DNA from: Romanomermis culicivorax
Lineage: Eukaryota; Nematoda; Enoplea; Mermithida; Mermithidae
Reading direction: 5' to 3'
DNA length: 64,000 nucleotides
NCBI GenBank assembly: GCA_963922205.1
Contig: CAWUHX010000250.1
Span: forward strand, 186,001-250,000
Shown: piece by piece, positions 37,261-64,000 of the stretch
Position numbering within the stretch: position 1 is the first letter of the stretch
Layout: every line of letters starts with the position of its first letter
The notes under the pieces: generated by a model
Database searches by the model: none
What the model was told of the DNA's origin: nothing
What the model saw: only the letters and a program-made list of their open reading frames with translations
Program-made: the position numbers and the translations under genes

Positions 37261-38195
37261 GAGATAATCAGAAAATTTTCTCGTTTTTAATTGAGAGGGA
37301 GCACTTATTTATATAATGGGTATATTTATTTATTTTTTCATGTTGCGAGTTGTGCTGGTACGCTTTTTCATATTATTCAATAACATTTATCGTCATACAC
37401 CTTGTGCTATAATATGTCAGATTATAAATTTTCGGAATGAACTATATCAAGTGTCATCTCGTTGCCAATGTAATATTTCTGTACATAACCATTTCAGATG
37501 TGATATTTTTCGGATCGGACTCACTTTCTACTATACATGACGGCAGCCAAAATCTGCTAGGATGCTTAATGAGGGATGGGCGGAGCTTCACATCCTGTAG
37601 CGGGAATTCCTGTTTCCATGAGACAATGTCCGGAAAAATTTTAGCATTTTATACAAGTTAAAAATAAACTGCCCTGAAAATTATATGATGGAGTAAATCG
37701 ATGCTACAATAAGACAAAGTTTTAAAATTCTCGTCTTTTCCGATTTTTGACAAATATTTATTTCAACTTATTGTCACGAGAAGTGACAAAGTTTAAAATA
37801 TTATATTGTATTTTTGATCGTAATTTTTCCGAGAAATAATCCGGTAATAACCAGTTTTGTACAATAGGTGTTTACGCGTTTCCTGCACCAAAAATTATAC
37901 CTATATGCACAACGCTTCACTTTTTTCCGCCGGATTTTCGTCATTGTTTTATATGTTTAATTTTCTCAGCAGATCAAATCTAAAACACTAATGGGTTTTT
38001 GGGAAATGGGCCGCTCTGGCCCATTAGGATGTGTGGAAATGCAACAGAAAGTATGGGACTGTAGTGACAGAACCTACGTCCTAAGTGGTGCGGGTCTAGT
38101 TTGGAGATAGACCCCTTCTGAAAGATGGGAAGAAAAAATAGCTCGTTCAGTCATAGAAATTGTCCACTCATTGGAGAGTCGTTTTTTCGAGACTG
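37261..38195. other. AMT 3' flank
   Basis: AAAAATAAACTG at 37661-37672 is a possible polyadenylation signal about 400 bp after the AMT stop codon. The remaining sequence shows no gene. The LTR element begins at 38196. Confidence 0.4.
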
Positions 38196-39605
38196 TGTCA
38201 CGTGCCGCTCAATTCCCCCAACGTCACGTGATTCCGATCATGTCAATATTTTGCTTTTCTTCATGATTTGTTTATTACTCATTCATGTTTCCGTTTATTT
38301 CATTTTTACACATGCATTTTGTGTTCGTTTTTATATTTTCATGCATTTCTATGTTTCGTTTTGTTGTATTTTTATTTCTTTATGAACGCGGGCTACAGTA
38401 GGCCCTTTAGCTAAAAACTTCCGCCAGCCGTGCTCCACGAGCACATGGCTATTTTTGGTGCATTCCATGCACCTCTTATCACCAAAAATTAGCTTCGTTT
38501 TTGTTACGCAAAAACGACTAGCTAAGAAGTTTAGCTAAAGACGTTCATATGCTTAGCATAGGTACTGCAGCCGGCCTCAGTGCTAAACGCATGTGAACGA
38601 AAAAATGTCTATGTGCTCATAGGCATCTTCTGCATCGCGTCTAGCTGCAGAAGTTAGCTTGGACGCCGAGAAACTCCGCCCAAGCTGCAGCTGTAGCCAA
38701 ACATGTCCTTAAAAGGACATGTTTTTCTAATTTTTCGCTCATTCCTGGGTTTACCCATGCGTCCGATTTTGTTGTCAGCGTCCGCCGCCTGTTGCCTAAT
38801 TTGAATAAATTCGAATACCTACTCCTACTGCGTCCGCCGCCTTATAGCATATAAAATTGCATAAATTTATACCCTCCTACCGCGTCCGCCGCTTACCCGT
38901 CTACAGTACCCGCTGCCCATCAGTGCCAGGTGTCCGACCGCTCCGGTTAGCAGAAGAACGTTGGAGAATCGCCTCCCGATAGCCGAAACTCGTCGCTAGG
39001 ACTCGTGTGGATCGCATCCCCGCTCCAGTGCCAGAAGACCGAAAGTATCCAGGGACTTGCTGCCCGATTCGTCGAATCGCTTGAGAAACAGGACTAGGTG
39101 AGTCTTCTCAGGGGATTATTGTTGTTTGTGGGGTATTTGTTGGGGAACCCTTCTTAAGTCGGTTTCCCAGGTTTTCCACAGATAAGTAGGGCCTCCACCT
39201 CTCAGGTTCGGGCTAAAACGGGGCTGTCTGGTTCATAACCGGGTCCCACAAATTAGGTCATTTTACGGGTGACCCTGTCCCCACTCTCACTGAGCAGGAC
39301 TCAGGGATTGTCGCACCTAGCCTGGCGGCGTTATCCATTACCCTACAGTAAGACCCCAGGACAACACCAGAGAGCACCAGCTATGGGTCTCCCTATAACC
39401 ACCATTCGCCAGGTTAGGCCCCCAACGCCAACCAGGGGAACCTGGGGAAAATGCCAGTATCCATCAGGAGTCACAGCCTATTACTCACTGTAATAGGATC
39501 AATCTGATATGGTTCACCATCAATGTGACGTCTAAAACACGGTACTACCTGATGTGATACCCAAACCTCCCCAGCTCCCCCATCAAAACTGGCAAAAACG
39601 TGACA
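38196..39605 (+). repeat. 5' LTR
   Basis: It begins TGTCACGTGCC and ends AAAACGTGACA. The inverted TGTCAC/GTGACA ends are typical. It contains T-rich sequence, then GTCCGCCGCC repeats (38770-38895). At 39098 it has a strong donor-like GTGAGT after AACAGGACTAG, which could serve to splice a subgenomic RNA. Small frames in it are duplicated in the 3' LTR and are not genes. Confidence 0.95.
39098..39103 (+). promoter_or_regulatory. Candidate splice donor in the LTR
   Basis: GACTAG followed by GTGAGT fits the donor consensus and is conserved in both LTRs; the diverged solo LTR at 58938-60497 has a matching GGTAAGT. Spliced RNAs are used by env-bearing LTR elements, so a role in making an Env message is plausible but unproven. 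Confidence 0.4.
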
Positions 39606-39623
39606 TGGCGAAGCTGGAAAATC
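39606..39623 (+). other. Primer-binding-site candidate
   Basis: The interior starts TGGCGAAGCTGGAAAATC directly after the LTR. TGG at this place is the complement of a tRNA CCA end, as in other LTR elements. I cannot assign the tRNA from memory with confidence. Confidence 0.5.
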
Positions 39624-40770
39624 GACCTTAAGTCTGGCACTCGCTCTTAAGTGCAAAAACTTCACCCTTGGGCCGGAACTACCCCCAGGTCCGGTTATTT
39701 CCCATTTTCAGTCGGACAAGCCCCCTTAAAATTGGGTATTAGCCATCCAATAAGTCGGAGACCCCCCCAAATTCAGGTTTACTGCCTAATGGGTCGGGAA
39801 TGTCCCTTATTTCGGATTACCATTACTGTAGGTCGGAAATTTCCCCCTGAAAGAGAGTGTTATTACTGTAAGTCGGAAATTTTCCCGTGCCACCGAGAGT
39901 TATTACTGTAGGTCGGGAATTTATCCCTTAAAATCGAGTTTAATTACTGTAAGACGGACATCGCCCTTACGAGTGATCTAAATGTGATCTATATGTGTAA
40001 ATAATTATCTCATGCGTGTGTATCGCCCCTATGAGTAATAAATTCCCCCTGAGTCGAGTTATTTACCCCCAGAGCGAGTTAAATGTCCTCAGAATCGAGT
40101 TATTTGCCCCAGAGTTGAGTTATATATCGAGTGTTCTGTATTTCTCCTCTGAATAATCCTGTATCTTCTACATACTTAGTCTGTGTTATAAATTCCCTCA
40201 TTCTCCTTTCACCTTTTATTTTCTTTTACCTCTCTCTCATTTGGGTGGTATACTGTAACCCTCAGGGTGGGTGCCGTTACAGTACGCCTGTGCCCATTCT
40301 GGTACTGTAACTACAGTATACCCATACGCCGGTACTGGTATCACAGCTGTAGGGGTTGAGGGCCTCTCCTGACTGTCGGAGGTCCATGACCCCATGATAC
40401 CGTACACCTTCCACGTATGATTCTGGACGTCATACGTGGCTGCGATCTGTTAACTGTGTACAGTATTTTTTTTGTATGTCGGCGGAAACTGTTCGAATTG
40501 CTCACTTTTCTGGCCCCAAAATTTTACACCTACTGTTTACACATTTAACACGCGTATGTCCAAATCTCGTATTTTCTGCTTTTCTGTTATTTTTCCCTCC
40601 ATTTTTTCTCGGTCATCTGAGCGGTGTCAAAAAAAAAAAATTGTTGTTTTACGCCACCGCTACAGTATGACACCCTTATGTACATCTCTCTCTTTTTTGA
40701 TTTCTACTTACTGTAAGGTCTCTCTCTTTTCCGGTTGTTGCATCTAGACCATAGACTTTACGGGTCATGC
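39624..40770. repeat. Leader, proximal part with short tandem repeats
   Basis: No gene is visible. TTACTGTAGGTCGGAAATTT-like units of about 50 bp repeat between 39815 and 39960, and ATCGAGTTATTTGCCCC-like units repeat between 40038 and 40130. ACAGTAC/TACTGTAAC motifs cluster at 40250-40345. Confidence 0.7.
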
Positions 40771-40774
40771 TCTT

Positions 40775-41814
40775 TGACGTCAGCAACAACAGCGTTATGG
40801 GTTGTTGTTGTCGTGTGGTTCAGCCTCACGGATGCAACCATCGACATCTGCAACAGCCGCTTCACTTGCTGTTGCTTTAAGGGGTGGATAGCCCTCTGGG
40901 TTCTACTCCTGACGTCAGCAACGATGACATCATGTGTTGTTGTTTTAAGTTAATACTCCTGCAGTACTGACTCCTGACGTCTGCAACAGCTGAAGCTCAC
41001 GTTGTTGCAACAGGTTCGGCTGGTCTCCTGCACCCCATCTGTGGCGTCAGCAATGGTGACGCACCGTGTCACTATTCAAAGATGTGCAGGTCTTACGGGT
41101 GCCACATCTAACGTCTGCAACAACTACATCTCATGTCATTGACTTAAGGTATCAGACCCTCGGTTCCACCTTTTGACGTCAGCAACGGCACCATCAAGTG
41201 TTGCTGTATGCCGATGGTTGGCTTCAGGGCCCTATTGCTGACGTCAGCAATGACAATGTATCATGCTCTCGCAGCAGGAATTGAGGTTACATGATCCTAT
41301 TTCTGACGTCTGCAACAGTAACATTACGTGCTACTGCAGGGGTTTTGCTGGCCTTAGGCACTCACCCCTGGCGTCTGCAACTGCGACATGATACTTGAAT
41401 ACTCTTATCCCAGGCACCTGCAGTCAGCACCAAGGTCACGTGTTGGTTCATACCCCCTACCTTTTGACGTCAGCACCAGGTTACTGTCAGTCCTATGAGT
41501 ATTCCACTTGAGTCGTAGGTGGTTGCTGGCGCATGGTCCTATCACCTGCTGCTCTTGCCAAAGGGTTGGTGTGTGTCTGAGACTGATGCCTGGGAAACAT
41601 CAGTCCACATACATACACCACCTGAGACGCTCTCTAGTCCGTACTGATCAGGTTGTCCGCCCGGGTAGCGGCACCGTTGATCAGCACCTGGCTGCCTTTA
41701 AGCTTTAACTGCAGGTTTGAACGAGTTGCACTCGGCCTCAGCTGGGTTGGTTGTTTAACTCGTGTAGACGGTAGGCATTTGCAGTCAGTACTGCCTGTGT
41801 TTGACGTCTGCAAG
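40775..41814 (+). promoter_or_regulatory. Array of about 13 TGACGTCAGCAAC-like sites
   Basis: Sites start at about 40775, 40843, 40910, 40975, 41042, 41109, 41174, 41239, 41304, 41369, 41419, 41465 and 41802. Up to 41369 the spacing is remarkably even, 65-68 bp. Six of them are TGACGTCAGCA (CRE plus half Maf site) and others have one or two changes. The site at 41236-41249 is the full palindrome TGCTGACGTCAGCA. The sequence between the sites is not clearly repeated beyond AACA/CATC-rich patches. The core is a known binding motif of bZIP proteins (ATF/CREB, large and small Maf). The position in the leader mirrors the insulator of Drosophila gypsy, which consists of repeated zinc-finger sites. 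Function here is inference. Confidence 0.75.
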
Positions 41815-43273
41815 GGTTAAGCAGCCTTCTTGTAAATTTCTTATCTAAATTCACTCATTCTCTTTCATCTCATCAAGCTGTCATACATAGATCTTCTTTA
41901 GTGTCCCCACCGTAGTGATTCCCGAGGGACCGCGGCACAGCCTCCGGTTGGGCCTAGAGTGTATAGGACCCCCTGTCATATTTCATTCACTTGAAAGCCT
42001 TCGTTAACTGGCTTAATGATGCCCGCGCTAGAGTCGCCACTGACCCAGAGTCCGCCTCCGCGGTCCACCCCTGTTAGTCATGTAATGTAATAGGCACCGT
42101 TGAGTCGGAATCTGCGAAGGTATCGAGTACGCCTCAATACATAACTGGGTCCGCCTCAGTTATTTACACTCAATTATTCACCCAGGGACACCTTGTACCC
42201 GTGATCCCTTAGATGTTTTCGGGTGCGCCCTCAAAACATCCAGAGTAAATTCATCTTAACTGACTGAGTGTGTCAGAATAGCACCCTTGGTACCCGTGCT
42301 CTCTCTCTCTTCCACTGTGTGACCTGCGAGCCTCATTTCATCTCAGTGATAGGCAACCCGGCCACCAGCTGTATATAATACTCCTGGAGAGTGTCTGTTC
42401 TGTTCGGAATGCGGGCTCCCGTTTCGAACACGGCTGTAAGTTACTTGCTAATGTCGTCCAACACGGAACCTCTGTATAGTCCATCACACTGTACAGAGAT
42501 CGCAATCGCTCCTGGCGAGTGAGGCCCATTGCGTAACTGCGCGACCCCTCTGCGTAACTGGGTTTGTAAATTAGTTTTGTCCCTATTTATTGCTCCCTTT
42601 TAAGTTCACTTTCAGTTGTCCACACCCTTTTTACCTTATGCCACTTTATGCGCTACTCCTGGTGAGTAGGATCTTGCCGGCTACGAGTCCGCCTCGCCCC
42701 AAGATTTGTAAACTAGTACAAACGGTCGAACCTCCAGGAAAAATCCCTCCTGAGCGGGTTTATCCGTCATCTCATTTCTCGGCAGGAAAACCGCCTTTTC
42801 TGTCTCCTCATCTATCCTTCTCTCCTTTTCGGCTATTCTAATTGCCGGGTCCAGGCCCCAACTCTACATCCTCTTGGTCGGGATCGATTCCCCCATATCT
42901 CAGGCCATGCCCACATCCATCACGGGCGACCAGATAAATTACCTTCTGCGTCACCCTGGTGTACTCTGATCTTGCATCTTACAATCTTATTCCCATTCTA
43001 GCTCCATTTTCGTGGTCGCTAGTCTTAAACTAAATCAAGTTCACGTCACAAACGCCGTCGCGCACGCGTTTTTCGAATTCACGCGCTCTTTCGCCGCGAA
43101 TTCAAAAGTAGTACTCACTTTCACTTTACACAATAGAGACACCTCTTCGTTCCTGCCATCTCAGTACCCAGCCTGTACGGACCAGTGAGCCGCTCTCTAT
43201 TCAACTTGACTTAATTGCTTCACGGGCAAGAACGTCTGTTCTAACCACCTTATGGGAAAACAAACCCTCGGAC
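41815..43273 (+). other. Leader, distal part
   Basis: About 1.5 kb without a supported gene before gag. It is C+T-rich with several short frames that lack any recognisable motif. CTCTCTCTCT and CCTCTC patches occur. The gag start codon follows at 43274. Confidence 0.5.
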
Positions 43274-44532
43274 ATGAAGTCGGAAACTGATCTCCCTTCA
43301 CAGATCGAGAACAAGGTCCAGGCAGCATTTGAGAATGCTCTTGGGCCTCTCAACCAAAAGTTACAGGCCATGAATGGTCGGAGGCACCCTCCCGTGTCCA
43401 GCTTTATGGCCCCTCCAACCTTCTCCGGTGCTTTTGGTGAGTCTATCACAGATTTTATGTCGCATCTTACTCGTTTCTTTACACTCCAGGGTGTAAGCGA
43501 AACGGATCATGCATATAAAATCGCCTTTCTGGAGTAATGCCTCATGGGTCCTGCTCTTGCCTCCTACCGGGACTTTAGCAGCAGACTCCACAACCTACCC
43601 GCTACGAAGAGTTTACGGCTTTTCTACGGAGAGATTTTCCGGTAGGGCGGGACTCTGATCTGCATCAGCAGCTGATCCAAGATCGACTGCAGAAGCCGAC
43701 AGAGTCCGCTATAGTCTACCTTGAGCACCTCAAGAGACTATCCAGGGTAGCGTATCCAGATCTCGCGACGGATGTCAGAGATTCTATCATCAAACCTATC
43801 TTTCTGCGAGGATTGAAACCGGTCCTCCAAGATAGTATCAAGTTTAGGGAGTTTACGACTCTTGAAGAGACACTCAAGGCAGCCTGTTACGCAGAATCCC
43901 AAATTTTTCGGGACGAGATTCGGTACACCGCACCATTTAACGCCGTTTTCTCTTCAGAACCTAAACACGCCGGATATAATCCCGATATGCCTAACAGAAG
44001 CGCTAACGGTCGTCAGAGCAATGCTCAAATGTCGTCATCCTCCGCCGATGAGGTTCGCCGCTTGAAACAGGAAATGGCCAGGCTAACGGCCCACGTAGCG
44101 AAGCTTACGGCCCAGCAGCGTGCACCAGCGCCAATCCAACAGACGCCGCCTCCACAGCCGTCGACACCAAATCAGTCCGCCGGGCGACGCTCGTCGGGAG
44201 CACACCTTCAAACATGCTCCTTCCACGGACTGTGTACACATAGCGACGCCGACTGCCGGGCCCAGCGTCCCACCGGAACCGCTCCCGGTAACAACACCGC
44301 TAACGGTGGTGGCTGTTACTTTTGCCCTACACGTGCTCACCCCACGGACCGATGTGATAGGCCATGCCCTCATTGTCCTCAAGTGCGAGTGCACCGATCA
44401 ACTGCCTGTCCACAGCGCAATCCGGCAAACACGGGTGAGAATGACTACCAAAATACTGGTTATTCTTCCCAGGGGACAAATGTGTATCATCAAAGAAATG
44501 GTTATCACCCTCCTAACGGGATGGGGAACTAA
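43274..44532 (+). pseudogene. gag: Gag polyprotein (interrupted)
   Basis: Gag forms the particle and binds RNA. The frame opens at ATG 43274, stops at TAA 43535-43537 and continues through CLMGPALASYRDF. It resumes one base back (shift of -1 between 43579 and 43631) as YEEFTAFLRRDFPVGRDSDLHQQ and runs to TAA at 44532. The middle, with YLEHLKRLSRVAYP and KPIFLRGLKP, is a Ty3-type capsid. The C-terminus carries a Ser/Gln/Pro-rich linker and zinc-binding motifs: CSFHG..CTHSDADC, then C-X2-C-X4-H-X4-C (CYFCPTRAHPTDRC) and C-X2-C-X5-H-X4-C. The stop and the shift are probably mutations of this copy. Programmed recoding is less likely, since the stop lies within the capsid. Confidence 0.82.
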
Positions 44533-44688
44533 TATCCGCAGCCCATACATCGCAACAATGCCATTGGGGCTACCGATGGCCCTCCTCATCCAGATCCTCT
44601 TGATCTGGATGATGAGGCACTTGCTTAACACCTGACAGATCCTTCACAACAGTGTTATCCTGTCTGCGTAATTAGTATTGGATTTTCA

Positions 44689-45068
44689 GTGGTCCAAGCA
44701 GCTCAGGTACCTGTACCAATAAATGTATCGGACATACCGCTGCCACCACCACCACCAAGGTATGCAATGCCGGTCACCATGGACCCCTCGACGACACCGC
44801 AGTTTGTTGGCCACGCTAACATCCTAGCAACGTATTGCATCCCCAAAACCACGACTGCTGAGCCAGCTCCAGCCGCAAATACGACGTCTTTGGCGCCACC
44901 GGCCCGCATCCTCCCTCCAGGACCACCGCCTTCGATCCCTACGGATTTGGCCATGGAAGTCCTCGACCAGGTCGAGCCCATGAATTTGTCAGGTATACTA
45001 CCTTCTTCTTCAGGTGATCCTAGAGTAGGAACCAGAAATCTATCTCAGTCTATGACTCTATTGATTTC
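44689..45068 (+). CDS. Proline-rich region after gag, uncertain
   Basis: The frame (same phase as the gag C-terminus) encodes a Pro-rich segment with [13 protein letters not shown] and [19 protein letters not shown] resembles late-domain or WW-binding motifs of viral Gag proteins. A TAA separates it from gag. The part of this frame after about 45060 is probably not read, since an overlapping phase has better coding character. It may be the start of the accessory protein below, joined by a -1 shift or a splice. Confidence 0.4.
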
Positions 45069-45839
45069 TTGTTCACAGCGCCATCGCCCGTCCAAGACGC
45101 GATGTTGGCCATCTGGTCAGTCGACCTGGCCAAGAAATACCCGCATTTGCCGTGGACTCTGCTCAACAAGCCGTCGCATGTGGAAGCGCTCACGGCCACT
45201 GACGTGGTGCTTGCAGCACCTGTATCAATGGGACTCTTACGACCCGACGTCGCCCGACAGGCACTCAAGTTCATTGCCAATGGGACTATCACAATCTCGC
45301 CCATCGAGAAGTTCTTATTGGATGGGGAGCCATCCTCGCCTTTGGTCGATGCCGTCCGCCGAGCAGTCGAACAGGCCAGTCGGATCCTCCTGCCTGCTGT
45401 CACCGCTACATCACCGACAGCAGCGCCACCTGTTGCCGCTACACCGCCAACAGAAATGGACACTATTGCTTCCTCGCCTCCGGCCAAGGAACCAGCAAAT
45501 GATCCCACACCGCCGGCAACAGCCCAAGCCACACCGTCGGCACAAGCCCAAGATACATAGCCGGCAGCAGCCCGAACCAAATCGCCGGCGCCAGCCCAAA
45601 AGACATCTCCGACTGCTGCGACCGAGTCGCCCGTCGTCGAACCCATGGCCGTTGATGAGATCTTACGTCCGGTTAATGAGGATGTCAGCATTGTCGACGA
45701 ATCACCGTTCCCAACAGCAGTCGCCCCACAGTCACCAAAAGTCGGCATCCTCGGGGAAATCCACCCATGCGGTGGGTTGGTCCTTGATTTCCCCGGTCAG
45801 GAACCCATCTCGTCTGACAGCGACGAAGAAGAAATCTGA
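45024..45839 (+). CDS. Accessory reading frame between gag and env (unrecognised)
   Basis: The frame is open from 45024 to TAG 45558-45560 and from there to TGA at 45839. The first 110 codons look like a small helical domain ([35 protein letters not shown]). They are followed by a Pro/Ala/Thr-rich stretch with repeated PAAA, SPAPAQK and ATAQATPS. The end is acidic: [11 protein letters not shown] pyrimidine tract and acceptor-like TTGTTCACAG lie at 45067-45077. I do not recognise a family. The position between gag and the glycoprotein suggests a Gag-like or matrix-like accessory product. The single TAG is probably a mutation. Confidence 0.45.
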
Positions 45840-45867
45840 CACTGCCCCTCAGGCCAGATTTGTGAAA

Positions 45868-47187
45868 ATGTGTGAACACTTACAAACCACGTTTGTACAG
45901 TTGTCTTTGATAATAAAATTGACCATAGTAACATCACTGTTTCTAGGGGTGAGTTTGTCAGCACCGGCGGCTCAGTATCAATTTTGTGGTCTCTCAAGAA
46001 GCAGACATCCACTTGAGTTACCCCAGGGTGTAGAGTGTAAACCACTGCAATCTTCATGGAGCCCATGGCGCATGAACGTTACAGTGTATGTTCCTAGCTC
46101 AGACCCGATTACAACCACAGCGTGGAAATGCACATTGCGCACCCGCAAAGTCTGCACCAACACTGGTTTCTTCGGCTCTAGGGGCATCACTGCAGACGTC
46201 ATTACCACTCAGCACTTAGCGCCTGCGGCCTGCACGCTAGCACATCGCACTAAAATGTTTGGCTCACAAAAACTTGTCGGCATTCGCCCTGGCTTTTATA
46301 GCATAAACCAAACATTGGAAGTGATGTACGAATGGTGCTGCAGCGACGTCTGCAAGACAGTGACTAACCTCTTCATCGAGGAGGGACAAGTTGCTTCGTG
46401 GGATGGCACTATGGCCCTGAGCACCTTAGGCGATGTAGGTGGATGCAGTCCCACTGCAGGTCAGTGCACTACTCTAGACGGGGTCATTGTCTGGCCTGCA
46501 CAAAACTCCACGGCGCGGTGTCATTATCACCCCAAAGGAAATTACACTGCGTCCATGTCAGGGAACCACGTCATCATCGATGATCTACACGTTGCCCTCA
46601 AGATCCCGGGAAACTCCCGCGTCTTCCAACTGTGCCCAGAACTATGTTCCACCACAGTCCAGACAGATCAGGGTCTTCTCCTACGCATCCACGGGAGATA
46701 CAATTTGACCCAAAACTTGTTCAGGATGGCAAAGGACACACGTCCCGATCCTGTCAATGCCAAACTGAACTACCTGGCTCAGCAGATCAAGGAGTCGGAA
46801 ATTAACTGTTTCCGGTTCACATGGCTTGAGCTCTGCTCTCACGCTCAACGCTATCTTGATCTGACTTGGCAGTTGCTTCGCTTGGACCCTACCTTGGGTG
46901 CCCGGGCATTCCTCCAGAGGAACGACCTGACGGCAGAATTCACAGGCGATGCACTGACAATATAGTCGTGTCAGAAGGTCAAGGCCACCTACGTTTACCA
47001 CTCGTACCGGGTGGGAAACGTTTGCTACAAGTACTTACCTGTACAGGTCGGCGGTACCATCTATTTCGCCACCCCGGTGGTCCAGATCTCATTAAATCTA
47101 GCCCAATTGTGCCGTGTCATCACCACTTTACAGGGATTTTCTGAAATCGCTCGGGCTGGTTTACTGAATCTGGCACGGTCCATGTGA
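45868..47187 (+). pseudogene. env: Env-like membrane glycoprotein, N-terminal part
   Basis: The frame starts at ATG 45868. It opens with a hydrophobic signal-peptide-like segment (QLSLIIKLTIVTSLFLG) and a likely cleavage region at about residues 31-35. The ectodomain of about 330 residues has more than 15 cysteines and potential N-glycosylation sites NVT, NQT, NST, NYT and NLT. TAG occurs at 46963-46965, but the same phase continues with NVCYKYLPVQVGGTIYF to TGA at 47187. From 47145 the glycoprotein continues in the next phase (-1), where it runs into the long pol frame. The CYKYLPV segment recalls glycoproteins of negative-strand RNA viruses of arthropods, but this is a weak impression. The interruptions look like mutations in this copy. 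Confidence 0.65.
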
Positions 47188-50100
47188 GCCACATCCCACT
47201 GGAACTCTTCTGGAAGCAGCGTTTCAACATCACTCACTTTGATGCACCAGCGCTCTTCCATGACCAGTTGGCGATGACCCCTTCAAACTTTGCCTTCTTT
47301 AAACAGTACGTTTACAAGACTGAGCAAATTGAAGCGGTACTAAACTGGCTGGTAAACTTTACCGCTGGTCTATCCCTGCAACCAGACGCCATCTACCAGG
47401 CTTTTGCAGGGGTAGGAACCGACATCAAGGCCTCTCTGGAAGGTGTCGGTTTGGCAGCAAACCATGTGATTACTGGTCAGCAACACAACCTCATTCAGGG
47501 CTTGCATGCTGTCCTGAGCCGGCCGGCTCAGCTGATCTTTAACACCCTAATTACCCTGACGGTGCTGATCGGTGTCGGATACCTTGCCTATCTTGGTGTA
47601 TCTTATTATCTCAGTTACCGTCTGCGGAACAAACAGGTCCATTTTGTTCGCCGTTTCTCCCCGTTGGGTCTTTACCGCAAAGTCCAACGCTGGATTGGTT
47701 TTCACTACGTGCAAAACGATGTGCCCTCCCAGCTTGACCGAATCACACCGTGCTTCGTCGTGCTGCTGGATGCCAAGGAAACTCCTGCTTTCCTTGATAT
47801 GGGTTGCCCCCGCACTATCATTAGCCAACGTCTTCATAAGGCCTTGGCTAAAGAAAGTTGGAAGGCGGTCATGGCGTTCCAGCAACATCACGACTTTAAC
47901 CAATTGATGAGCATCAATGGTAAAGCCGTTCATACCATCCTTTCGGGACCATATGAAATCATGTTGCCCGGAAACCGCCAGCTGAACACATGGATCGATA
48001 TACATCTCCATGTGTGCAAGACAACGTCTCCCTTCTGGGCACCTGTTGACCTTATACTCGGACTGGACTTCTTAGAACAGTTCAAGAACATTATGTTTGA
48101 CTACCAACGTAATGTTTGTCGGCTGGAGGCGGTAGAATTGCCCCTCCTACTGACAATGCCGGAGATTGACCAGATCGACCCCTGGTGGGAGAACACCCGT
48201 GCTCTCTCAAGAAACTCACACAGGTTGGGATCACGATTGCGGTCCAGGGCTTCGTCCATCTCTCGGCCACACTCATGGGCTTCCTCAGTTGCCTCATCAC
48301 GTGGGTCAACCCGGGGATACCGGACTTCTTCCAGACGGGCAAGTCCTCATTCGTCGACCTTGCACGGGTCAGGTTGCCCTCGACCTCCGCCTGGAAACTC
48401 TCCAGTTACACTAGAGCAAGGCCGATTCCGTGAGCCAAGTGATTCAGATGCTCCGGCATCACCCGTGCCAACCGCGCCACCGCTATCAGACACCGAGATT
48501 GAATCACTAGGAGCTACTCAGAGCCCAAGGGACCACTCAGACCACGTACTCACGGTACAGGATGAGTCCACCCTTCTCAATGACCCGGAACCCTCCGTCG
48601 GATACGCTCTAGTAGGTCTACTCTGTCGTACGGGACTGCTGATTCCAAAGCGGTCCGGTAAGACTAAACACACTAGTGGTGCCACCACACCTGATTCTGG
48701 TCATGTGGTCTCTGCTTTCTACCCAAATGATATTCGGACACCCCATATCAAAGTTCTCCTCAATAACTGGGTTGAAGCAAAGGCACTGGTTGACACAGGA
48801 GCTGTTTTCTCACTCCTAGACCACAAGTTAGCGGCCCAGCTGCCCAACTTGACACTTTCACCAACCAGGGCTCGCCCTATCGCAGCCAACGGGTCCCCGA
48901 TCCCATTGCTAGGAGCAGCCTACATCACGGTAACAGTAGCTGATGTCTCTGAACAGATTCAGGTCCAAATACAGGATAACTGTTCAGCTGAACTGGTCCT
49001 CGGAACAAACTTCCTTGGCCGGTTCAATTGTGTCAGCTTGAACTGGGAGAAATCCTTCCTCCAGTTCAAGGAAAGTAAAATCCCCTGTGAGGGTCTCATC
49101 CACAGCCCACCTTCTGCCCACGGCGCTTTGCCCCTGAAGGACTTGGTAATTCTGGAGCCTCGCTCCCTGACACGATTCACTGTACCCGTGCCACCAATCT
49201 ATAAGAACGTACCTGAGGTGGCCTTCTTCCCAAAGCACCTCAGGGGATCTCAAAGAAACGTATATTTTGCTGGGAGCGTGAGTAGCGTGACCAACAGTCA
49301 CATACCACTTCAAGTAGTTAACCCAAATACTCATTCCGTGGTTCTCTACCCGCACATGACCATCAGTCATGTGCAAATGCATAGTGAGCCCTCACGGGGA
49401 TCACCGGTCGACTCAGACACCGTCCTCGATCGTCAGTGGGTCAAGGCCAATGCTGTAATCTCACCATATATCTCCCCTCGGGACCGGGCAGCCTTACTCG
49501 ACCTACTGGTTGCATACACCGACCTCTATGCTCTTGATGAAAAGGACACAGGTTCCACTGATCTCGTCCAGCATGAAATCAGCACGGGCGATGCCCGCCC
49601 AGTCCGCCGTTTCCCTTATCGGTCCTCACCTAAGGAAAAGGATCTCATCATGCAGGAGGTCAAGGCGCTCCAGGAGAAAGGTATTATCCAGCCAAGCACG
49701 TCACCGTGGGCTACTAATACTGTCCTGGTGCGCAAGAAAAACGGTTCTCACCGTATGTGTGTTGATTTTCATGGTCTTAACGAGGTCACGAAAAAGGATG
49801 TCTACCCTCTCCCACGGATAGATGACATCCTTGACACACTCAAGGGTATGAAGTATTTCACTACCCTTGACCAGGCTAACGCTTATTGGTCAATCCCAAT
49901 TGCCGAGGCGGATAAAGAAAAGATGGCATTCAGTACGCCCATTGGACTTAACGAATTCAATTATTTGCCTTTCGGTCTGTGCAATGCACCAGGGACATTT
50001 CAACGCCTCATGGACCTCCTCCTTACTGGAATCCAATGGCGCACGGTTCTGACCTATCTCGACGACATTTTGGTGTTCGGGAACTCTCACACCCAAATGC

Positions 50101-52436
50101 TTGAGCGCCTGGCAGATGTGTTCGCCCGTCTTCGCCGGGGTGGAATTAAGCTCAGACAGAGCAAGTGCAAATTCTCGCACTCAGAGGTAGAGTACCTAGG
50201 CTATCGCATCTCACATTGCGGCCTAGAACCTGACCAAGCCAAGCTGGCCGCCGTCCAAAACCTACCCATTCCACAAAATGCCAAAGACATCAAGTCCTTC
50301 CTGGGCCTCGTGTCTTACTACAGGCGTTTCATCCCTGGTTGTGCCCGGCTCAGCGAGCCACTCACCAAGCTCTTACGGAAGGAAACTACGTTCCAGTGGT
50401 CAAAACCTCAGCAGGAGGTGTTCGACGAACTCCGCCTCCTGCTGACCAACCCTCCTATCCTGCGCCATCCGGACTTCTCGAAATCGTTTATCCTTCAAAC
50501 TGATGCAAGTATTTCGAGGATAGGAGCGGTTCTAAGCCAGTTAGACAAATTTGGACACGACCATCCTGTCGCGTACGCCAGCCGAGGGTTAACAGTGGCC
50601 GAGAAAAACTATTCCATTACAGAACTGGAAACTCTCGCTGTTGTCCATTTCATCAAGCACTTTCGACCATACCTCTTCCAGCACGAGGTGGTCGTTCAGA
50701 CTGACCATACAGTGGTCAAAGCAGTGTTGGAGAAGCCTAACCCCTCTGCTCGGATCGCTCGATGGGGACTCGCACTCGCCGAATTCAAACTGACAATTCG
50801 GCCGCGAAGAGGTCAGTCTAATGGTAATGCTGATGCATTATCACGCCTGCCGGATCCTAACTCCCTCACCGGTCAGAGTATTGATGATACTCCCCTTTAC
50901 AGACCTGAGGGACATGTTATGATGATCACCGATGGTGTGCAGCACCTGGCGAGATCGAGAACCTTGACCGATGGTGTGCAGCACCTGGCGCGATCAAGTC
51001 TTTCAGCACCGATCACTGCTGGCGCGGAGCGCCCGGTACGATCAGAGTCTTATGCCGAGATATCGGTTGGTGCGCAGCACCCCGACCTTTTCGCTGCTCA
51101 GCTGGAGGATCCGGAGTTAGCTGACATCATTCGCTCTCTTAAGCCCCTGGGCGACCAGAATGATGTGCGCGGCTACCATCTGTTGGATAACGTTCTTCAG
51201 AAATGGACAGGCGAGTCCAATAAGATCGTCATACCCAGATCCATGGTTACTACCATTATCCGGGCTCATCATGATGACATCTTAGCTGGACACTTTGGTG
51301 CTAAACCTACTGCGCGGCTCATTGCTCGCAGATACCACTGGCCTTCCCTCAGTCGGGATGTTAAGTCCTTCTGTCAGCGGTGTGATCTTTGCCAACGGAA
51401 TAAGCCCGCTCGACAGAAAACCACTGCGACCCTGAAACCCATCATCATAACGGGACCATTTCATGGGGTAGGTGTCGACTGTATGGGACCAATGACCACT
51501 AGCGAAGCTGGCAACCGTTTCATTGTAGTCTTCATCGACTACTTTACGAAATGGGTCGAGGCTTTTGCTACTCCGGATATCACTGCGCACACCATAGACC
51601 GGCTGTTTGTAACGCAAATTGTCTGCCGGCACGGGGCACCGCAGATTCTTCAGTCAGATCGTGGCACTGATTTCACATCAAAACTGATGGCTGAGATCAC
51701 TGCGATCTGCGCAACGAAGAAGATCCACTCTACCGCCTATCATCCGATGACCAACGGCGAGGTGGAAAGAGCTAATCAGACGCTAGCCACACGGCTACAT
51801 ATGTATGTTCATCACGGACATACTGATTGGGATGAACACCTACCATACGCTGTGTTTGCCGTCAATATCAGCATGAATGAGTCAACAGGGTACTCGCCCT
51901 TTGAACTTATGTACGGTCGCACACCCATGCTCCCTGTTGATGCCGCGCTCTCATTCAACCCTCCGGCCCATATCATTAATGTTTCCTCATATGATATAGA
52001 GGTCAAACGTCATTTCACGAATGCATTAACCTTAATCCAGAGTCGGATTGAGAAAGCACAGGAGGCCTATGCACGGTCTTACGACGGGAGGGCACATGAT
52101 GTCTCGTACAAAGTAGGGGATCAGGTGCTCAAACTGCGCACCTCCAGCAAACGTGGACTCACTCCTAAATTGCTGCCCATCTACGATGGGCCCTATCTTG
52201 TAAAAAGTGTGGCATATCCCAATGTCACACTTCGTCTCAAGACGGATCAGGAAGACACTGTACATGTCAACCAGCTTCGACTTTACGTGTCCCCTGAACC
52301 ACCGAGTGAAGCAGAGGATACACCTCCCACTTCACAGGCAACGGATTCGGCACCCTTGTTGTTTCCTTCAACAAGCCGGGACTTTACACCGAATTTGATT
52401 GACCCACATCTTGATGCAGAGGTCCCCGACCCTTAA
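47145..52436 (+). CDS. pol: Env transmembrane part fused to Pol polyprotein
   Basis: One open frame of about 1,760 codons; residues are numbered from 47184. 1-115: membrane-proximal glycoprotein-like sequence. 115-143: transmembrane helix ([17 protein letters not shown]), then a basic tail. 180-310: retropepsin-like domain with DMGC at 205 in place of DTGA, ending LILGLDFL. 310-500: Ser/Arg- and Pro-rich spacer. 520-630: canonical retropepsin, DTGA at 537, LVLGTNFL near 610. 795-1070: reverse transcriptase with VDFHGLN and YLDD at 958-961. 1100-1235: RNase H (TDAS, ELE, TDH, NADALSR). 1255-1300: linker with four degenerate repeats. 1355-1690: integrase with HHCC zinc finger, D-D-E (GVDCMGP, QSDRG, NGEVER) and a GPY/F end (DGPYLVKSV). 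No start codon decides the N-terminus: the first ATG in the frame is near 47275, so synthesis probably depends on recoding or splicing. Confidence 0.9.
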
Positions 52437-52978
52437 TTCAAGATGTATTCTCTTCATTGTCCCCGCTTACAGACAAGGACATCCTTTTTCGAAGGACCGC
52501 CGTGTCCACTCTTGTCCATGCTGGATCATAGTGGATAGAAGAGAATGTGCAGCAGCCAAAGCGTCACATCTTAGGCGCATCCCCACCCGATAGCCTACAT
52601 CTCACTGGGTGCATCCCCTGTGATAACCCGATATCCTACACCTCACTGGGTGCATCCTCTGCGATAACCCGATAATCTGTACCTCACTGGGCGCATCCTC
52701 TGCAATAGCCTACATCTCGCCCTGAAAATTTTTCTTTTCTGCGTTCTAGACTTTCGCACAGGACATTCAATGTCTGCAACTTCACGCATCAACAATTTCC
52801 GGTTACCATACTGTCGAACGAATTACAATCAAAGAAGGCTCCATCCGCCAACAACCCAACGGACCTATTCGACCACCCACCGTCACACCTTGGAACAACC
52901 TACGACCATGGACACGCCGCACAAACCTCACTACTAACCACCACAAGGACGAGGACACCCTTTTTCGAAGGACCGCCA
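52437..52978 (+). repeat. Post-pol region with 41-bp repeats and a duplicated pre-LTR motif
   Basis: CTCACTGGGTGCATCC units repeat with a 41-bp period between about 52592 and 52715 (three copies). TTTTTCGAAGGACCGCC occurs twice, at 52486-52503 and just before the 3' LTR (52961-52977). Plus-strand priming normally uses a purine tract here; only AAGGACGAGGACA (52943-52955) is moderately purine-rich. No env follows pol. Confidence 0.7.
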
Positions 52979-54388
52979 TGTCACGTGCCGCTCAATTCCC
53001 CCAATGTCACGTGATTCCGATCATGTCAATATTTTGCTTTTCTTCATGATTTGTTTATTACTCATTCATGTTTCCGTTTATTTCATTTTTACACATGCAT
53101 TTTGTGTTCGTTTTTATATTTTCATGCATTTCTATGTTTCGTTTTGTTGTATTTTTATTTCTTTATGAACGCGGGCTACAGTAGGCCCTTTAGCTAAAAA
53201 CTTCCGCCAGCCGTGCTCCATGAGCACATGGCTATTTTTGGTGCATTCCATGCACCTCTTATCACCAAAAATTAGTGTCGTTTTTGTTACGCAAAAACGA
53301 CTAGCTAAGAAGTTTAGCTAAAGACGTTCATATGCTTAGCATAGGCACTGCAGCCGGCCTCAGTGCTAAACGCATGTGAACGAAAAAATGTCTATGTGCT
53401 CATAGGCATCTTCTGCATCGCGTCTAGCTGCAGAAGTTAGCTTGGACGCCGAGAAACTCCGCCCAAGCTGCAGCTGTAGCCAAACATGTCCTTAAAAGGA
53501 CATGTTTTTCTAATTTTTCGCTCATTCCTGGGTTTACCCCTGCGTCCGATTTTGTTGTCAGCGTCCGCCGCCTGTTGCCTAATTTGAATAAATTCGAATA
53601 CCTACTCCTACTGCGTCCGCCGCCTTATAGCATATAAAATTGCATAAATTTATACCCTCCTACCGCGTCCGCCGCTTACCCGTCTACAGTACCCGCTGCC
53701 CATCAGTGCCAGGTGTCCGACCGCTCCGGTTAGCAGAAGAACGTTGGAGAATCGCCTCCCCATAGCCGAAACTCGTCCCTAGGACTCGTGTGGATCGCAT
53801 CCCTGCTCCAGTGCCAGAAGACCGAAAGTATCCAGGGACTTGCCGCCCGATTCGTCGAATCGCTTGAGAAACAGAACTAGGTGAGTCTTCTCAGGGGATT
53901 ATTGTTGTTTGTGGGGTATTTGTTGGGGAACCCTTCTTAAGTCGGTTTCCCAGGTTTTCCACAGATAAGTAGGGCCTCCACCTCTCAGGTTCGGGCTAAA
54001 ACGGGGCTGTCTGGTTCATAACCGGGTCCCACAAATTAGGTCATTTTACGGGTGACCCTGTCCCCACTCTCACTGAGCAGGACTCGGGGATTGTCGCACC
54101 TAGCCTGGCGGCGTTATCCATTACCCTACAGTAAGACCCCAGGACAACACCAGAGAGCACCAGCTATGGGTCTCCCTATAACCACCATTCGCCAGGTTAG
54201 GCCCCCAACGCCAACCAGGGGAGCCTGGGGAAAATGCCAGTATCCATCAGGAGTCACAGCCTATTACTCACTGTAATAGGATCAATCTGATATGGTTCAC
54301 CATCAATGTGACGTCTAAAACACGGTACTACCTGATGTGATACCCAAACCTCCCCAGCTCCCCCATCAAAACTGGCAAAAACGTGACA
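52979..54388 (+). repeat. 3' LTR
   Basis: It is 1,410 bp, the same length as the 5' LTR, with about 13 substitutions between them by eye. Ends TGTCACG and CGTGACA are intact, followed by the target duplication ACTG. Confidence 0.95.
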
Positions 54389-55690
54389 ACTGTTTGCTCG
54401 TACATTTTGGCGTATAACGTGAACGTTATCACTGTTTTGGTGGATAGCATACTATCCCCTTTTTGGTCTTGGACATGTAATGTGAACGTTACCATGTCGT
54501 TTTGTGGGTAGCGAACTATCCCAAATTTTACATTATTTCTTAGTGGGTACTATAGTGCCCCTTTCTTATTTTTCAGGGCCGCATGCCCTTCATGGTATTC
54601 CTTCCCTTCTATGGGCAGGGACGTTGCCCCACTTATCTTATTTCGCCAGCATTGCCACCCAAACCCGAACCCTCGGATTTCTTGGCGCAAGTCTGACCGC
54701 ATCTGACTGGTTGTAACGTGAGTTGTAATATTTATCTATTATTGTTATTGTAAATTAGTAAAGTTAAAAAAAAACCCAACCTATTTGTCAGCGCTTAGGG
54801 GACTAATAATTCTCCCAACACCTCACTCCTGACATTATGCACATTGAATATTGTCATGTAAACTTCTCAATTAGGCGATGCATGGGCAGTATAGAAATAA
54901 TGAGTCATAAATTCGTATTGAGATTACATCAGTGCTTGAAACATCCAAAATTTGCAGGTTTGTTCTCAAAAATCACGGTATCTACACGAGCTCAGAAGCA
55001 CCGAGTTCCTGGCTCTTGACAAAAAAATTACAGAAATTTATGCTAGGGTGTCATTAGAATTCAGAATTTGAACACAATTTTATCATTTCATTTTTGGAGA
55101 ATTGCAAAGAATAAGCATTATATGTTTTAAATGCCAAATATGTGAGTTACAATCAAAACATAAAATTTGCATGTAGCTACATGTGCCTAAAAATTGTGAA
55201 TTTTTGCGTTTTTGGAGTTCGGCCCGAACCGATTTGGGTTACTGTAGGTCAAAATGTGCAAAATTTTAACAGGTAAATCTTTAAATTTCTGCGTTCTTTT
55301 GTTCATAAAAATGTTAACAAACAATTTTTGATCGTAAATATGACGTATAAATGAAGCGGAAAATCTGACTTGAAGGAAACCCGAACAAAATACCATACAA
55401 ATTGACAGAACTGTAAGTGAAAATGCAACATCAAGCATTTTAACATACAGTTTTATGCAAATTTTCGCAACTTTACATGCTCATATAACATCGTGAAAAT
55501 GATCTGTGTGTAAAATGATTGTTTTCATGGTAATCAGCGCCGAAAACTGAACGACCGTTGTGAAATTCAGGACAAATTTTAATTAGGTTATCGCCCCTGA
55601 TGATGGTGGTGGCGTGATTCGACTCTTACATGTGGAAAATATACTTTTTCGACATGAATATACCCATCTATACATTTTTTTAATTATACC
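54389..55690. other. Right flank of the LTR element, no recognised gene
   Basis: The stretch has GTAACGTGAACGTTA-like repeats at 54410-54500 and otherwise AT-rich sequence. Open frames here lack motifs. Confidence 0.35.
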
Positions 55691-58937: not shown

Positions 58938-60497
58938 TGTCACATTAACTGAAATTGGAGCCATGTCACATTAAATGGTATGTGGGCAGTCACGTTGATG
59001 GAGGGATCCATGCCATATTGATAAAAATATGGCCATGTCACTGTGAGTGACATGTTGTGACTCTGTTGGGTGGCTCGGTTGGTATTTCAGTTTGGGAACC
59101 TGACCAGGCTAGTACTGGCTATAGGAAGGCTTATAGGGTACTTTGGTGCTGTCCTGGGGTTCTGCTGTAGAGTAATGGACAACACCGCCAGGTCAGGGGT
59201 GGCAATCCCTGGTCTCATTCAGTCTGAAGGATGGACAAGGTCACCCAAAGGGAAAAAGGGCTCCTCTAACTGAGGGGGATCTCAAGGGAAAACCGACTTG
59301 TGGAAGGGTTCCCCTAAATACACCCTCCACAACAATAATCCCCTGAGAAGACTTACCTATAATCTGTTTTTTTAGAAATGCTTCTGAATAATGAAAGTGG
59401 AGAGTAAGTAGTTTTTCAGATTTTCATGATTTTCTGATAAACAATACATCGTATGGGACTGAAAATTTGTGAGCATACTAACCTCACCTTTAGAAATTTT
59501 TCGAGTGAAAAATTTCATGGTAAGATCTCTACGTAAAGGTTTTAGACGACAGTACTGATTTGTGTCACTTTTCTATTTGGAAGCATTTTATAAAAAACAG
59601 ACTATAGTCCTGTTCTCAAGTACGAGTTCATGCAAGGGCGACAGGTCCCTGGGAATGTGGGTTTGGTCAGTGAACAGGAGTGTTAATGATCCGGTCGGTT
59701 CGGGGCAGTGGGTTAGCTCGGGAGGTCAGAGGGCAATACTCAAATGTTCTACGAACAGAAAAGCAGGGATGACTAGGCGCTGAGGGGTGATGGGTATGTT
59801 CCTATACGAGAGTCCGGCAGTGGACGCTGTGGACAAGTAAACGTATGCAAATTTATTGAAGTACTGCAGGGCGGTGGATGCAATACAATATAATAAAAAT
59901 GTTTGTAAATTTGGCAGCGACAGACGCAGAGCTAAGACAGAAAGCAAAACGTGGGAGAACCCAAAAGAGAGTACAAAACTAACAAAACAGGCCCTTTTAA
60001 GGACCTCGTAGGCCTACAGTATGTCCTGGGCAGAGGCAATGATGCCCAAGCTAACTTCTACAGTGGAAATTGGTGCAGAGGATGCCTATGGTCAAATAGA
60101 CATTTTCCAGTTCGAATATGTTTAGCATTGGGGACGAGTTACATCCCTATGCTAAACATATGAATGTCTTTTAATGAGAACTTCCAAACTAGTTGTTTTG
60201 CATTGCAAAACGTCGCTTGTTTTTACTGATAGGAAGTGCATGTGATGCTCCAATTATGGCCATGAGCTCGTAGAGCTTATCTGGCGGAAATTCTGATTAA
60301 AGAGTCACATACTGTAGCCTATGTGCGGAACAGAAAACAACAAAAACGTAACAAAAATGACACACAAAATGCATGTAAAACATAATGAATGGAACGAAAT
60401 AAAAGTAAGTAACTGTCAAATAAAAAGTGGCAAAAACATAAAATATCAGCATGATGTAAATTATGTGACCTTGGGCAAAATTGATCGGCATGTGACA
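58938..60497 (-). mobile_element. Solo LTR related to the 38196-54388 element
   Basis: Read on the minus strand it begins TGTCACATGCCGATCAA and ends TTAATGTGACA. It aligns with the LTR of the large element in order: the TTTTTATTTCG region, the GGCTACAGTA region, CAGGGACCTG.CGCC, the donor GTAAGTCTTCTCAGGGG and the AAACCGACTTG region. Divergence is high. The target duplication TTGT is exact (58934-58937, 60498-60501). A TA-flanked MITE is inserted at 59360-59604. It documents an older insertion of the same family that lost its interior by LTR recombination. Confidence 0.88.
59360..59604. mobile_element. TA-flanked MITE inside the solo LTR
   Basis: The inverted ends TAATCTGTTTTTTTAGAAATGC and its inverse AAACAGACTA lie between TA and TA. 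The LTR of the large element, at the same place, reads CACCTAGTCCTG without a break, which gives the empty site. Related copies are at 55696-55930, 26338-26570 and about 29350-29512. Confidence 0.82.
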
Positions 60498-63128: not shown

Positions 63129-64000
63129 TTATTTAGTCCAACCATAAGGAAATGTACAAAAATTACGTTTCAAAATACGTTTATCATATACTATACGAAA
63201 TTTTTTCAAAGTTTTACGAGTAACAACTTTACGATCTTGCTGACGCTCTATACGGAGACTATGTACATCTACTTCTTCTTTTCCATTGTTTTTTACAAAA
63301 GCAAAAACCATTCGACGAAGCGAATAAAAATTAACTTTTTTCATAGTATCTGATGACAAAGTGATACTGCGGACTTTGATTACATGACGGTATTGGTCTG
63401 TAGAGGGACTGTACAACCTGTAGGCGTAATTTTTAGGACCTCCACTAACAAATTCGGTAATGTAAGATCCAGAACCATATTCACGTAACTCGTCAGTCAT
63501 TTCACCAAGACACCAACCAGTGGGTACTTGATATTGTTGTTTGTCAACTGTTGACAGGTAAATAATACTATCCGTGTCAAAATACAATACTCGACTTTTT
63601 AATCGCTCAATGTAAGAATATAACTTTAATCGAGCTTGAGCCGTTGTATAAGCTGCAATAACAGCGTTAGTATTTCCCATGATTTCGGCAAAATCATCAT
63701 GTTGACAATATGTTGTTGACACCAATTGTTCATTGATTAGTCTAACATTCTTAATAATATTGGCGACATTCATCACAAGTTCAAAATATTCTTTGGGTGC
63801 ATTGTGGATAACAGTCTTATCCATATTGTTTCGTTGACCAAACTAAAAAAACATAAAAATAATTAAATGAAATACAAAAAACTATGCATAGTTACTTTTC
63901 CCCAGAAAGAATTTAGCATTAATTTAGCCAAAGCTCTCTTTCCAGGATTTTTTAAAATTTTTGAAGAATCCAATGAAATATTCTCACGATTGTAGACCTC
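63129..64000 (-). CDS. Protein-primed DNA polymerase B, C-terminal part
   Basis: Minus strand, two exons: 64000-63896 (continues beyond the window) and 63842-63129 (stop at the end). The intron 63895-63843 is 53 bp with GT-AG ends. The upstream exon reads KRALAKLMLNSFWGK, the downstream FGQRNNMDK, which together give a continuous palm motif LNSFWGK-FGQR. Motif C follows, RVLYFDTDSIIY, with its catalytic aspartates. The protein ends CTFPYGW, near the usual PYGY-type end of Polinton polymerases. The enzyme replicates the element using a protein primer. The shown part is open. A linear-plasmid or virus-derived copy is an alternative. Confidence 0.85.

Follow-up and report, generated by a model that had tools for sequence, protein, structure and literature searches.

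A glycoprotein gene held in frame between gag and pol in a Ty3/gypsy-type element family of the nematode Romanomermis culicivorax

The window analysed here, a stretch of 64,000 nucleotides from the nematode Romanomermis culicivorax (contig CAWUHX010000250.1, positions 186,001 to 250,000), contains a damaged copy of a 16.2-kb Ty3/gypsy-type element with long terminal repeats (LTRs; complete insertion 38196-54388, + strand). This endogenous, env-bearing element probably encodes Gag, an envelope glycoprotein (Env) of class III type and Pol as one polyprotein of ~3,050 residues, a reading to which we assign a probability of roughly 0.7. The Gag-Env-Pol gene order itself is real and maintained in the family and is not a chance feature of one copy. 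A sequence-only reading of the window had proposed that a glycoprotein is encoded between gag and pol, is joined in frame to Pol and is followed directly after its anchor by a protease-like domain; each of these points was borne out, and the same order was found in many genome copies. The further claim that the architecture is new does not hold, since env in frame between gag and pol already appears in the published description of the planarian element Burro (PMC6431247).

The copies in the R. culicivorax genome (359 Mb in 595 contigs searched) carry the main evidence. With a piece of Env as the query, 112 copies were scored among 3,529 candidates; these are 93-96% identical, the window itself aside, and in 34 an open frame extends over 3,079 codons or more. 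A reverse transcriptase-RNase H (RT-RH) query gave such a frame in 61 of 91 scored copies (9,186 candidates). When the 24 found by both queries are removed, at least 71 distinct copies possess one open frame of 3,079-3,116 codons; the first ATG in copies C78 and C5 gives about 3,040-3,060 codons. More specifically, gag, the start of Env, a first protease-like domain (PR1), a linker, a second protease domain (PR2) and RT-RH lie in one frame in all six full-frame copies that were read in pieces. Gag had been correctly placed upstream of env in the sequence-only reading; in six of six intact copies it is continuous and shares the Env-Pol frame as well.

Some of these copies inserted recently. LTR mismatches in ten full-frame copies number 0, 0, 0, 0, 2, 6, 8, 14, 24 and 35 in alignments of about 1.4 kb that contain 0-22 gap positions, the four mismatch-free pairs spanning 1,452-1,474 bp and one of these having a one-base gap; the dated copies were chosen for their long frames and the ages are those of intact copies only. 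Target duplications of 4 bp are visible in 8 of 10 other copies, and the alignment ends of the remaining two are ambiguous.

Comparison of gene order revealed neither env after pol nor env-less gag-pol copies, among copies picked for full frames and with an Env query that is blind to env-less copies. In the window, nothing Env-like follows pol, as had been stated: between the stop codon of the Pol frame (52434-52436, read in the sequence) and the 3' LTR, positions 52437-52978 are ~540 bp without a long open reading frame (ORF) and with 41-bp tandem repeats. The 3' LTR begins about 7,084-7,126 bp after the start of Env in the ten copies whose ends were read (7,111 in the window), a distance that leaves no room for env after pol. 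In the 24 full-frame copies that both searches scored, the distance from Env to RT is constant (3,630-3,633 bp in + strand copies; 3,939 bp, by lower coordinates, in - strand copies). The errantivirus-type trait, env as a separate ORF after pol, was found neither in the window nor in the copies.

Ratios of nonsynonymous to synonymous substitution (dN/dS; Nei-Gojobori, averaged over copy pairs, which are not independent) reveal purifying selection on gag, the first part of Env, PR1, the linker, PR2 and RT-RH. Among six full-length copies each, the values are 0.21 for gag, 0.22 for PR1, 0.29 for the linker, 0.05 for PR2 and 0.07 for RT-RH. The first 365 codons of Env gave 0.18 (8 copies, not all full-length); Env is thus kept as a protein, less strictly than RT.

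The region between gag and env contains an overlapping gene. ORF X (45024-45836, + strand, in the window) lies in the -1 frame relative to Gag/Env/Pol, has about 255-279 codons and ends 28 bases before the Env ATG; its first in-frame ATG is at 45102, and the window copy has one internal stop. The same ORF was seen in copies L029, L031, L033, L035, L037 and L039. Across six copies, dN/dS in this region is 0.23 in the X frame versus 1.21 in the Gag/Env/Pol frame, and third codon positions of X carry 45 of 82 variable columns (five copies). In 12 copies considered by similarity rank (of 17 taken), X is stop-free in 11, with a length change in one, while the Gag-Env spacer is open in the polyprotein frame in nine (two of them full-length) and the third frame is open in none. 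X thus very probably encodes a protein, overprinting the Gag-Env spacer. A Pfam scan of the X piece 45024-45557 from the window gave no match; a YPxL motif in five of five copies and a PSAP-like late motif in one of five are too short to serve as a basis for assignment.

Recurring splice signals suggest a spliced mRNA for X. A candidate donor, CTG/GTGAGTA at 42661-42662 (+ strand), is a consensus match only and is present in the window and in five of five other copies. Two candidate acceptors where X begins, with last bases at 45013 and 45078 (+ strand), recur in five of five intact copies scanned, under a loose rule that yields ten sites in 4.6 kb of the window. X may be an accessory protein, probably made from a spliced mRNA from which gag is removed. 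Expression of X by -1 frameshifting is less favoured than splicing, as no slippery heptamer was found at the gag/X boundary of six copies within 180 bases of the X start, and a GGGAAAC sequence near the end of gag is in frame in only two of the six.

In the window, Env begins with an ectodomain part (45868-46962, + strand) that has an N-terminal hydrophobic segment (signal-peptide-like, about 45886-45966), 16 cysteines and 5 N-x-S/T sequons, in agreement with the signal peptide, Cys-rich ectodomain and five N-glycosylation motifs noted earlier. An interrupted stretch follows (46963-47144; stop, frame change, stop), then a membrane-proximal part (47145-47525), delimited by alignment to relatives, and a transmembrane helix (47526-47606) predicted from hydropathy. 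The frame that the membrane-proximal part and helix were said to open runs from 47184 to 52436 (1,750 codons when counted from a GTG, 1,763 between stops with 47145 as the first position), and Pfam confirms protease, RT, RNase H and integrase within it. The idea of an Env-Pol ORF stands for this part of the frame; Env is not one ORF in the window copy, which has two in-frame stops and one frame change within 46963-47187. When aligned to the relative P0001, the pieces of Env in the window are parts of one protein. Neither the window pieces scanned nor the database protein P0002 have strong hydrophobic segments other than those at the two ends of Env.

The identity of Env, formerly argued from features only, now rests on homology. 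The piece 45868-46962 is 37% identical to P0001 (536 amino acids, E 1e-54), 37% to P0002 and 30% to a second database protein, P0028; the membrane-proximal region is 45% identical to P0002 over 144 amino acids (E 5e-45) and 35% to P0028 over 127 amino acids. The family PF24664 (Monjiviricetes_fusion, cut-off 27 bits) matches P0001 at 50.7, P0002 at 45.0 and P0028 at 44.9 bits. An Env profile searched against PDB found 43 sequences at E <= 10 (best 2e-6), all named glycoprotein B (gB) or ORF8, GP110 or BALF4, the latter three of which we take to be gB homologues; the matches cover about 140 of 598 profile positions, in the central region, and were obtained without a shuffled control. Glycoprotein B is a class III fusogen, and the uniformly gB-type matches place Env with the class III fusogens. 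Judged by these similarities, Env is a homologue of viral fusion glycoproteins and not merely Env-like, and it appears to be of class III type, with a predicted fusion activity.

The arrangement is also found outside this genome. The whole Pol frame as a query matched 1,455 proteins, and among the best 120, which were examined, two combine PF24664 with an RT: P0002 and P0028 (sources jgi and ncbi). P0002 has 2,973 amino acids on a 10,266-bp contig and contains a Ty3_capsid-like region with three zinc knuckles at its N-terminus, then Env (about 672-1280), then protease, RT and integrase; its RT-RH is 68% identical to that of the window. P0028 has 2,844 amino acids on a 12,744-bp contig, with Env (about 853-1440) followed by protease, RT and integrase. 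Both thus resemble the window element in having a homologous Env before PR-RT-RH-IN (IN, integrase) in one protein, and P0002 shares the capsid-like start; they differ in that P0002 has three protease-like stretches, while P0028 has one, an additional hydrophobic segment and an N-terminal region that matches no known family. Translation across the spacer is supported by its openness and by the continuity of the frame, seen in the genome copies, in P0002 and, for the Env-to-Pol part, in P0028.

In a tree of 117 RT-RH regions, which includes no named reference elements, the window, P0002, P0004 and P0007 group with support of 1.0, the pairing of the window with P0002 having a support of only 0.305. 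P0028 falls outside this clade, and one and two acquisitions of Env are consequently not told apart. Of 118 proteins in which an RT motif could be recognised, 5 have a transmembrane-like segment before RT, P0105 and P0117 being marginal, and P0007 begins inside an anchor-like region just before its protease. P0004 (RT-RH 61%) has gag and pol without an ectodomain, with two weakly hydrophobic segments between them (about 509-588, mean Kyte-Doolittle 1.6); it looks as if the ectodomain alone were missing, and either a deletion or splicing of the transcript could account for this. When P0001, the anchor/PR1 region and RT-RH were run against viral contigs, no relative turned up. Nor did any emerge among 4,397 candidates when Pol residues 1-400 alone were the protein query; this is not to be taken as absence, since the full-length query found P0002 and P0028.

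If the frame is translated as one protein, Gag would be made in the cytosol and an internal signal sequence would insert the following chain into the endoplasmic reticulum, so that the Env ectodomain would be lumenal and glycosylated. The transmembrane helix would then return the chain to the cytosol, and PR1-PR2-RT-RH-IN would start out tethered under the Env-bearing membrane. Signal peptidase would cut Gag from Env, one or both retropepsins after the anchor would release the enzymes, and Gag, Env and Pol would be brought to one membrane for assembly. Alphavirus and flavivirus polyproteins bring their products to one membrane for assembly in this manner.

Several points weigh against a single polyprotein of this kind. 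Its translation, topology and cleavage are predictions from sequence. One polyprotein would yield Gag, Env and Pol in equal amounts, which is not the case in known retroviruses. Taken by itself, the window Env piece reaches 15.5 bits against PF24664, under the cut-off, and AlphaFold2 gave no usable model of P0001 (the first row of alignment A1, not the window; mean pLDDT 35.4). The 850-amino-acid N-terminal region of P0028 matches no gag family in Pfam and none of the gag pieces of the window, and a third hydrophobic segment at residues 1537-1574, between its Env anchor and protease, would by simple topology rules leave Pol on the wrong side of the membrane. P0002 and P0028 are themselves taken as uninterrupted ORFs from their status as database proteins. 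Lastly, a Met codon stands at the start of Env in eight of eight copies looked at, as a separate start needs, and the polyprotein frame across X is not conserved as protein (dN/dS 1.21), so that the case for translation through the spacer comes from its openness and from P0002 and P0028.

Conservation of the Env ATG and the lack of constraint on the spacer protein would suit a separate Env-Pol mRNA. Under this explanation, which we regard as unlikely but the most serious of the alternatives, a spliced subgenomic mRNA that begins at the Env ATG (45868) would supply Env-Pol, Gag would be a product of its own and the continuity of the frame from Gag into Env would be incidental; the recurring candidate donor and acceptors would also fit. 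Against an incidental frame stand the openness of the spacer in 9 of the 12 copies compared, when the third frame is stopped in all 12, and the single protein P0002, which contains both a capsid-like region and Env. The recurring acceptors moreover sit where X begins, some 0.8 kb upstream of the Env ATG, and the X ATG lies between.

The frame after the Env anchor contains two retropepsin-like domains, where the sequence-only reading had rightly seen a protease but only a single domain. PR1 (47742-48143, + strand), directly behind the anchor, is divergent, with an active-site motif that is altered in the window copy. It has no Pfam match and is weakly similar to retropepsins (E 4e-6 to P0007 and 2e-4 to P0004; hhalign E 0.0013 with a probability of only 18.5%); a DTG motif is present in six of six intact copies and a second conserved motif, DLILGLDF, in five of six. 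The linker between the domains (48150-48719) matched no Pfam family. PR2 (48720-49199), which has the DTG motif and matches PF13975 at 34.5 bits (cut-off 28.2), is on this match a clear retropepsin. Because retropepsins work as dimers, the tandem PR1 and PR2 could pair within one chain, though this is speculation. No report of duplicated or tandem proteases was present among the literature matches listed, a search whose scope left out bioRxiv and most subscription journals.

At 47614 and 48819 the window has acceptor-like sites, which raise the alternative of a Pol mRNA spliced to a point beyond the Env anchor, with Env and Pol as separate products and no Env-Pol fusion. This is improbable to a much greater degree than a separate Env-Pol mRNA, since the frame from anchor to Pol is open, and is selected in the parts tested, PR1 included, and the two sites are known from the window alone. 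Slightly more doubtful still is the notion that the glycoprotein-like part is a domesticated or structural membrane anchor for Pol and not a fusogen. It draws on the fact that fusion activity is a prediction and on P0004, in which Gag, Pol and the two weakly hydrophobic segments occur without an ectodomain; the glycoprotein-like part is homologous to viral fusion glycoproteins and its ectodomain is under selection, which argues for the contrary. Chance nesting or an assembly error in the window, which the interrupted state of its copy might have suggested, is already refuted by the 112 and 91 scored copies on many contigs, the target duplications in 8 of 10 and the two database relatives.

The remaining features of the window copy are those of a Ty3/gypsy-type element. 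The 5' LTR (38196-39605) and the 3' LTR (52979-54388), each 1,410 bp with termini TGTCACG...CGTGACA, pair at 99.08% identity over 1,410 bp without gaps, and the target site duplication ACTG (4 bp) is present on both flanks (38192-38195 and 54389-54392). LTR ends of the form TG...CA with a 4-bp duplication agree with the Ty3/gypsy (Metaviridae) pattern, in which duplications are 4-6 bp, as does the Pol order PR-RT-RNase H-IN seen by Pfam in the window and its relatives. Directly 3' of the 5' LTR is a putative primer-binding site (TGGCGA..., 39606-39623), followed by a leader of ~3.5 kb (39624-43111), as defined by copy comparison. The leader of copy C5 is 92-97% identical to that of the window and four other copies, and the longest ATG-initiated ORF in these leaders, 122 codons, occurs in one copy only. 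Gag (43208-44529; capsid region and zinc knuckles) is interrupted in the window copy, and Ty3_capsid scores are below the cut-off of 29.1 bits both for its 3' piece (15.4) and for P0002 (25.8). RT and RNase H occupy 49728-50786 (PF00078, 4e-32; PF17917, 2e-34), and the H2C2 zinc domain and core of integrase 51231-51746 (PF17921, 9e-21; PF00665, 2.5e-8), all of these on the + strand. The window copy is too damaged to make the polyprotein.

Three other sequences in the window were observed. A ~340-bp fragment at 60046-60385 (- strand) is 73% similar to the LTR and is perhaps a remnant of an older or related element. Positions 1589-2712 contain 2.8 head-to-tail copies of a 275-bp unit and one inverted copy, with tRNA-Ser(GGA)-like genes, probably tRNA-derived repeats. 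At 63129-63842 (- strand), a stop-to-stop frame of 237 codons includes a YFDTDS motif, which we take to be that of family B DNA polymerases; it is possibly a Maverick-type fragment, and a Pfam scan of this frame gave no polymerase match.

The closest published precedent is Burro (GYPSM1, 2019), and the Gag-Env-Pol order is accordingly not new in kind. Its description terms it 'the first case' of env in frame between gag and PR-RT-RH-IN and presents a Gypsy-like element with one polyprotein whose env matches mononegavirus fusion glycoproteins (PMC6431247), in all of which it resembles the family described here. Burro is far larger, its ORF1 having 4,873 or 5,140 amino acids with BIR, ankyrin and BCL2 motifs and a dUTPase-like domain between PR and RT, and a total length of >30 kb (PMC6431247), whereas the window element has about 3,100 codons in 16.2 kb, two protease-like domains and an overlapping gene; the two are set apart here by description and not by sequence. 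No Pfam match to BIR, ankyrin, BCL2 or dUTPase domains was found in the window pieces scanned, which did not include the leader and the Gag-Env spacer in the polyprotein frame.

The hosts probably differ too. A COX1-like sequence at G000:C117:992573-993922 is open under the invertebrate mitochondrial code and lies deep in a contig of >990 kb, as either a recent nuclear copy or an assembly join; four of four conserved lysines inspected are encoded by AAA, and conserved serines by AGA. In flatworm mitochondria AAA codes for Asn. If this sequence belongs to the host itself, the reading of AAA as Lys makes it probable that the host is not a planarian, unlike the hosts of Burro.

Other known systems share single features with this family. 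Errantiviruses (gypsy) and other env-bearing Ty3/gypsy elements likewise have LTRs, PR-RT-RH-IN and an envelope glycoprotein, but their env forms an ORF of its own (PMC6431247), which in most cases follows pol (PMC5408684). Anakin carries a chuvirus-derived glycoprotein, and hence one taken from the same broad virus group, on a BEL/Pao backbone (PMC10084718, PMC12440569); Gypsy and Copia elements showed no clear glycoprotein capture in the first of these studies (PMC10084718). Cer1 CERV, also a Gypsy/Ty3 element, has an accessory protein made from a spliced mRNA, as may be the case for X, although the C-terminal half of that protein derives from an ORF after pol and is not Env-like (PMC10309623). 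A literature match for the phrase gag-env-pol together with retrotransposon, within the same scope as above, returned nothing; this wording fails to retrieve the Burro paper as well.

In retroviruses and most known env-bearing elements env comes last and has its own mRNA; the present family shows that this rule can be stably broken. What the family adds is the spread of the arrangement, the apparently class III-type Env, the selected second protease after the anchor and the selected overlapping gene X; this compact family probably extends the published case beyond flatworms into another phylum. At somewhat less than even odds, it may represent an active retroelement lineage with an alphavirus-like plan, comprising a single Gag-Env-Pol membrane polyprotein, a Pol tethered by the Env anchor, a tandem and possibly self-pairing retropepsin and an overprinted X. 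The dozens of closely related copies can be used to study the expression, topology and processing of a membrane-tethered Pol. If the alphavirus-like plan is true, Env before Pol would be found in at least three families (that of the window, P0002 and P0028) at two places of the RT tree, and it would constitute a distinct plan of replication and assembly for reverse-transcribing elements.

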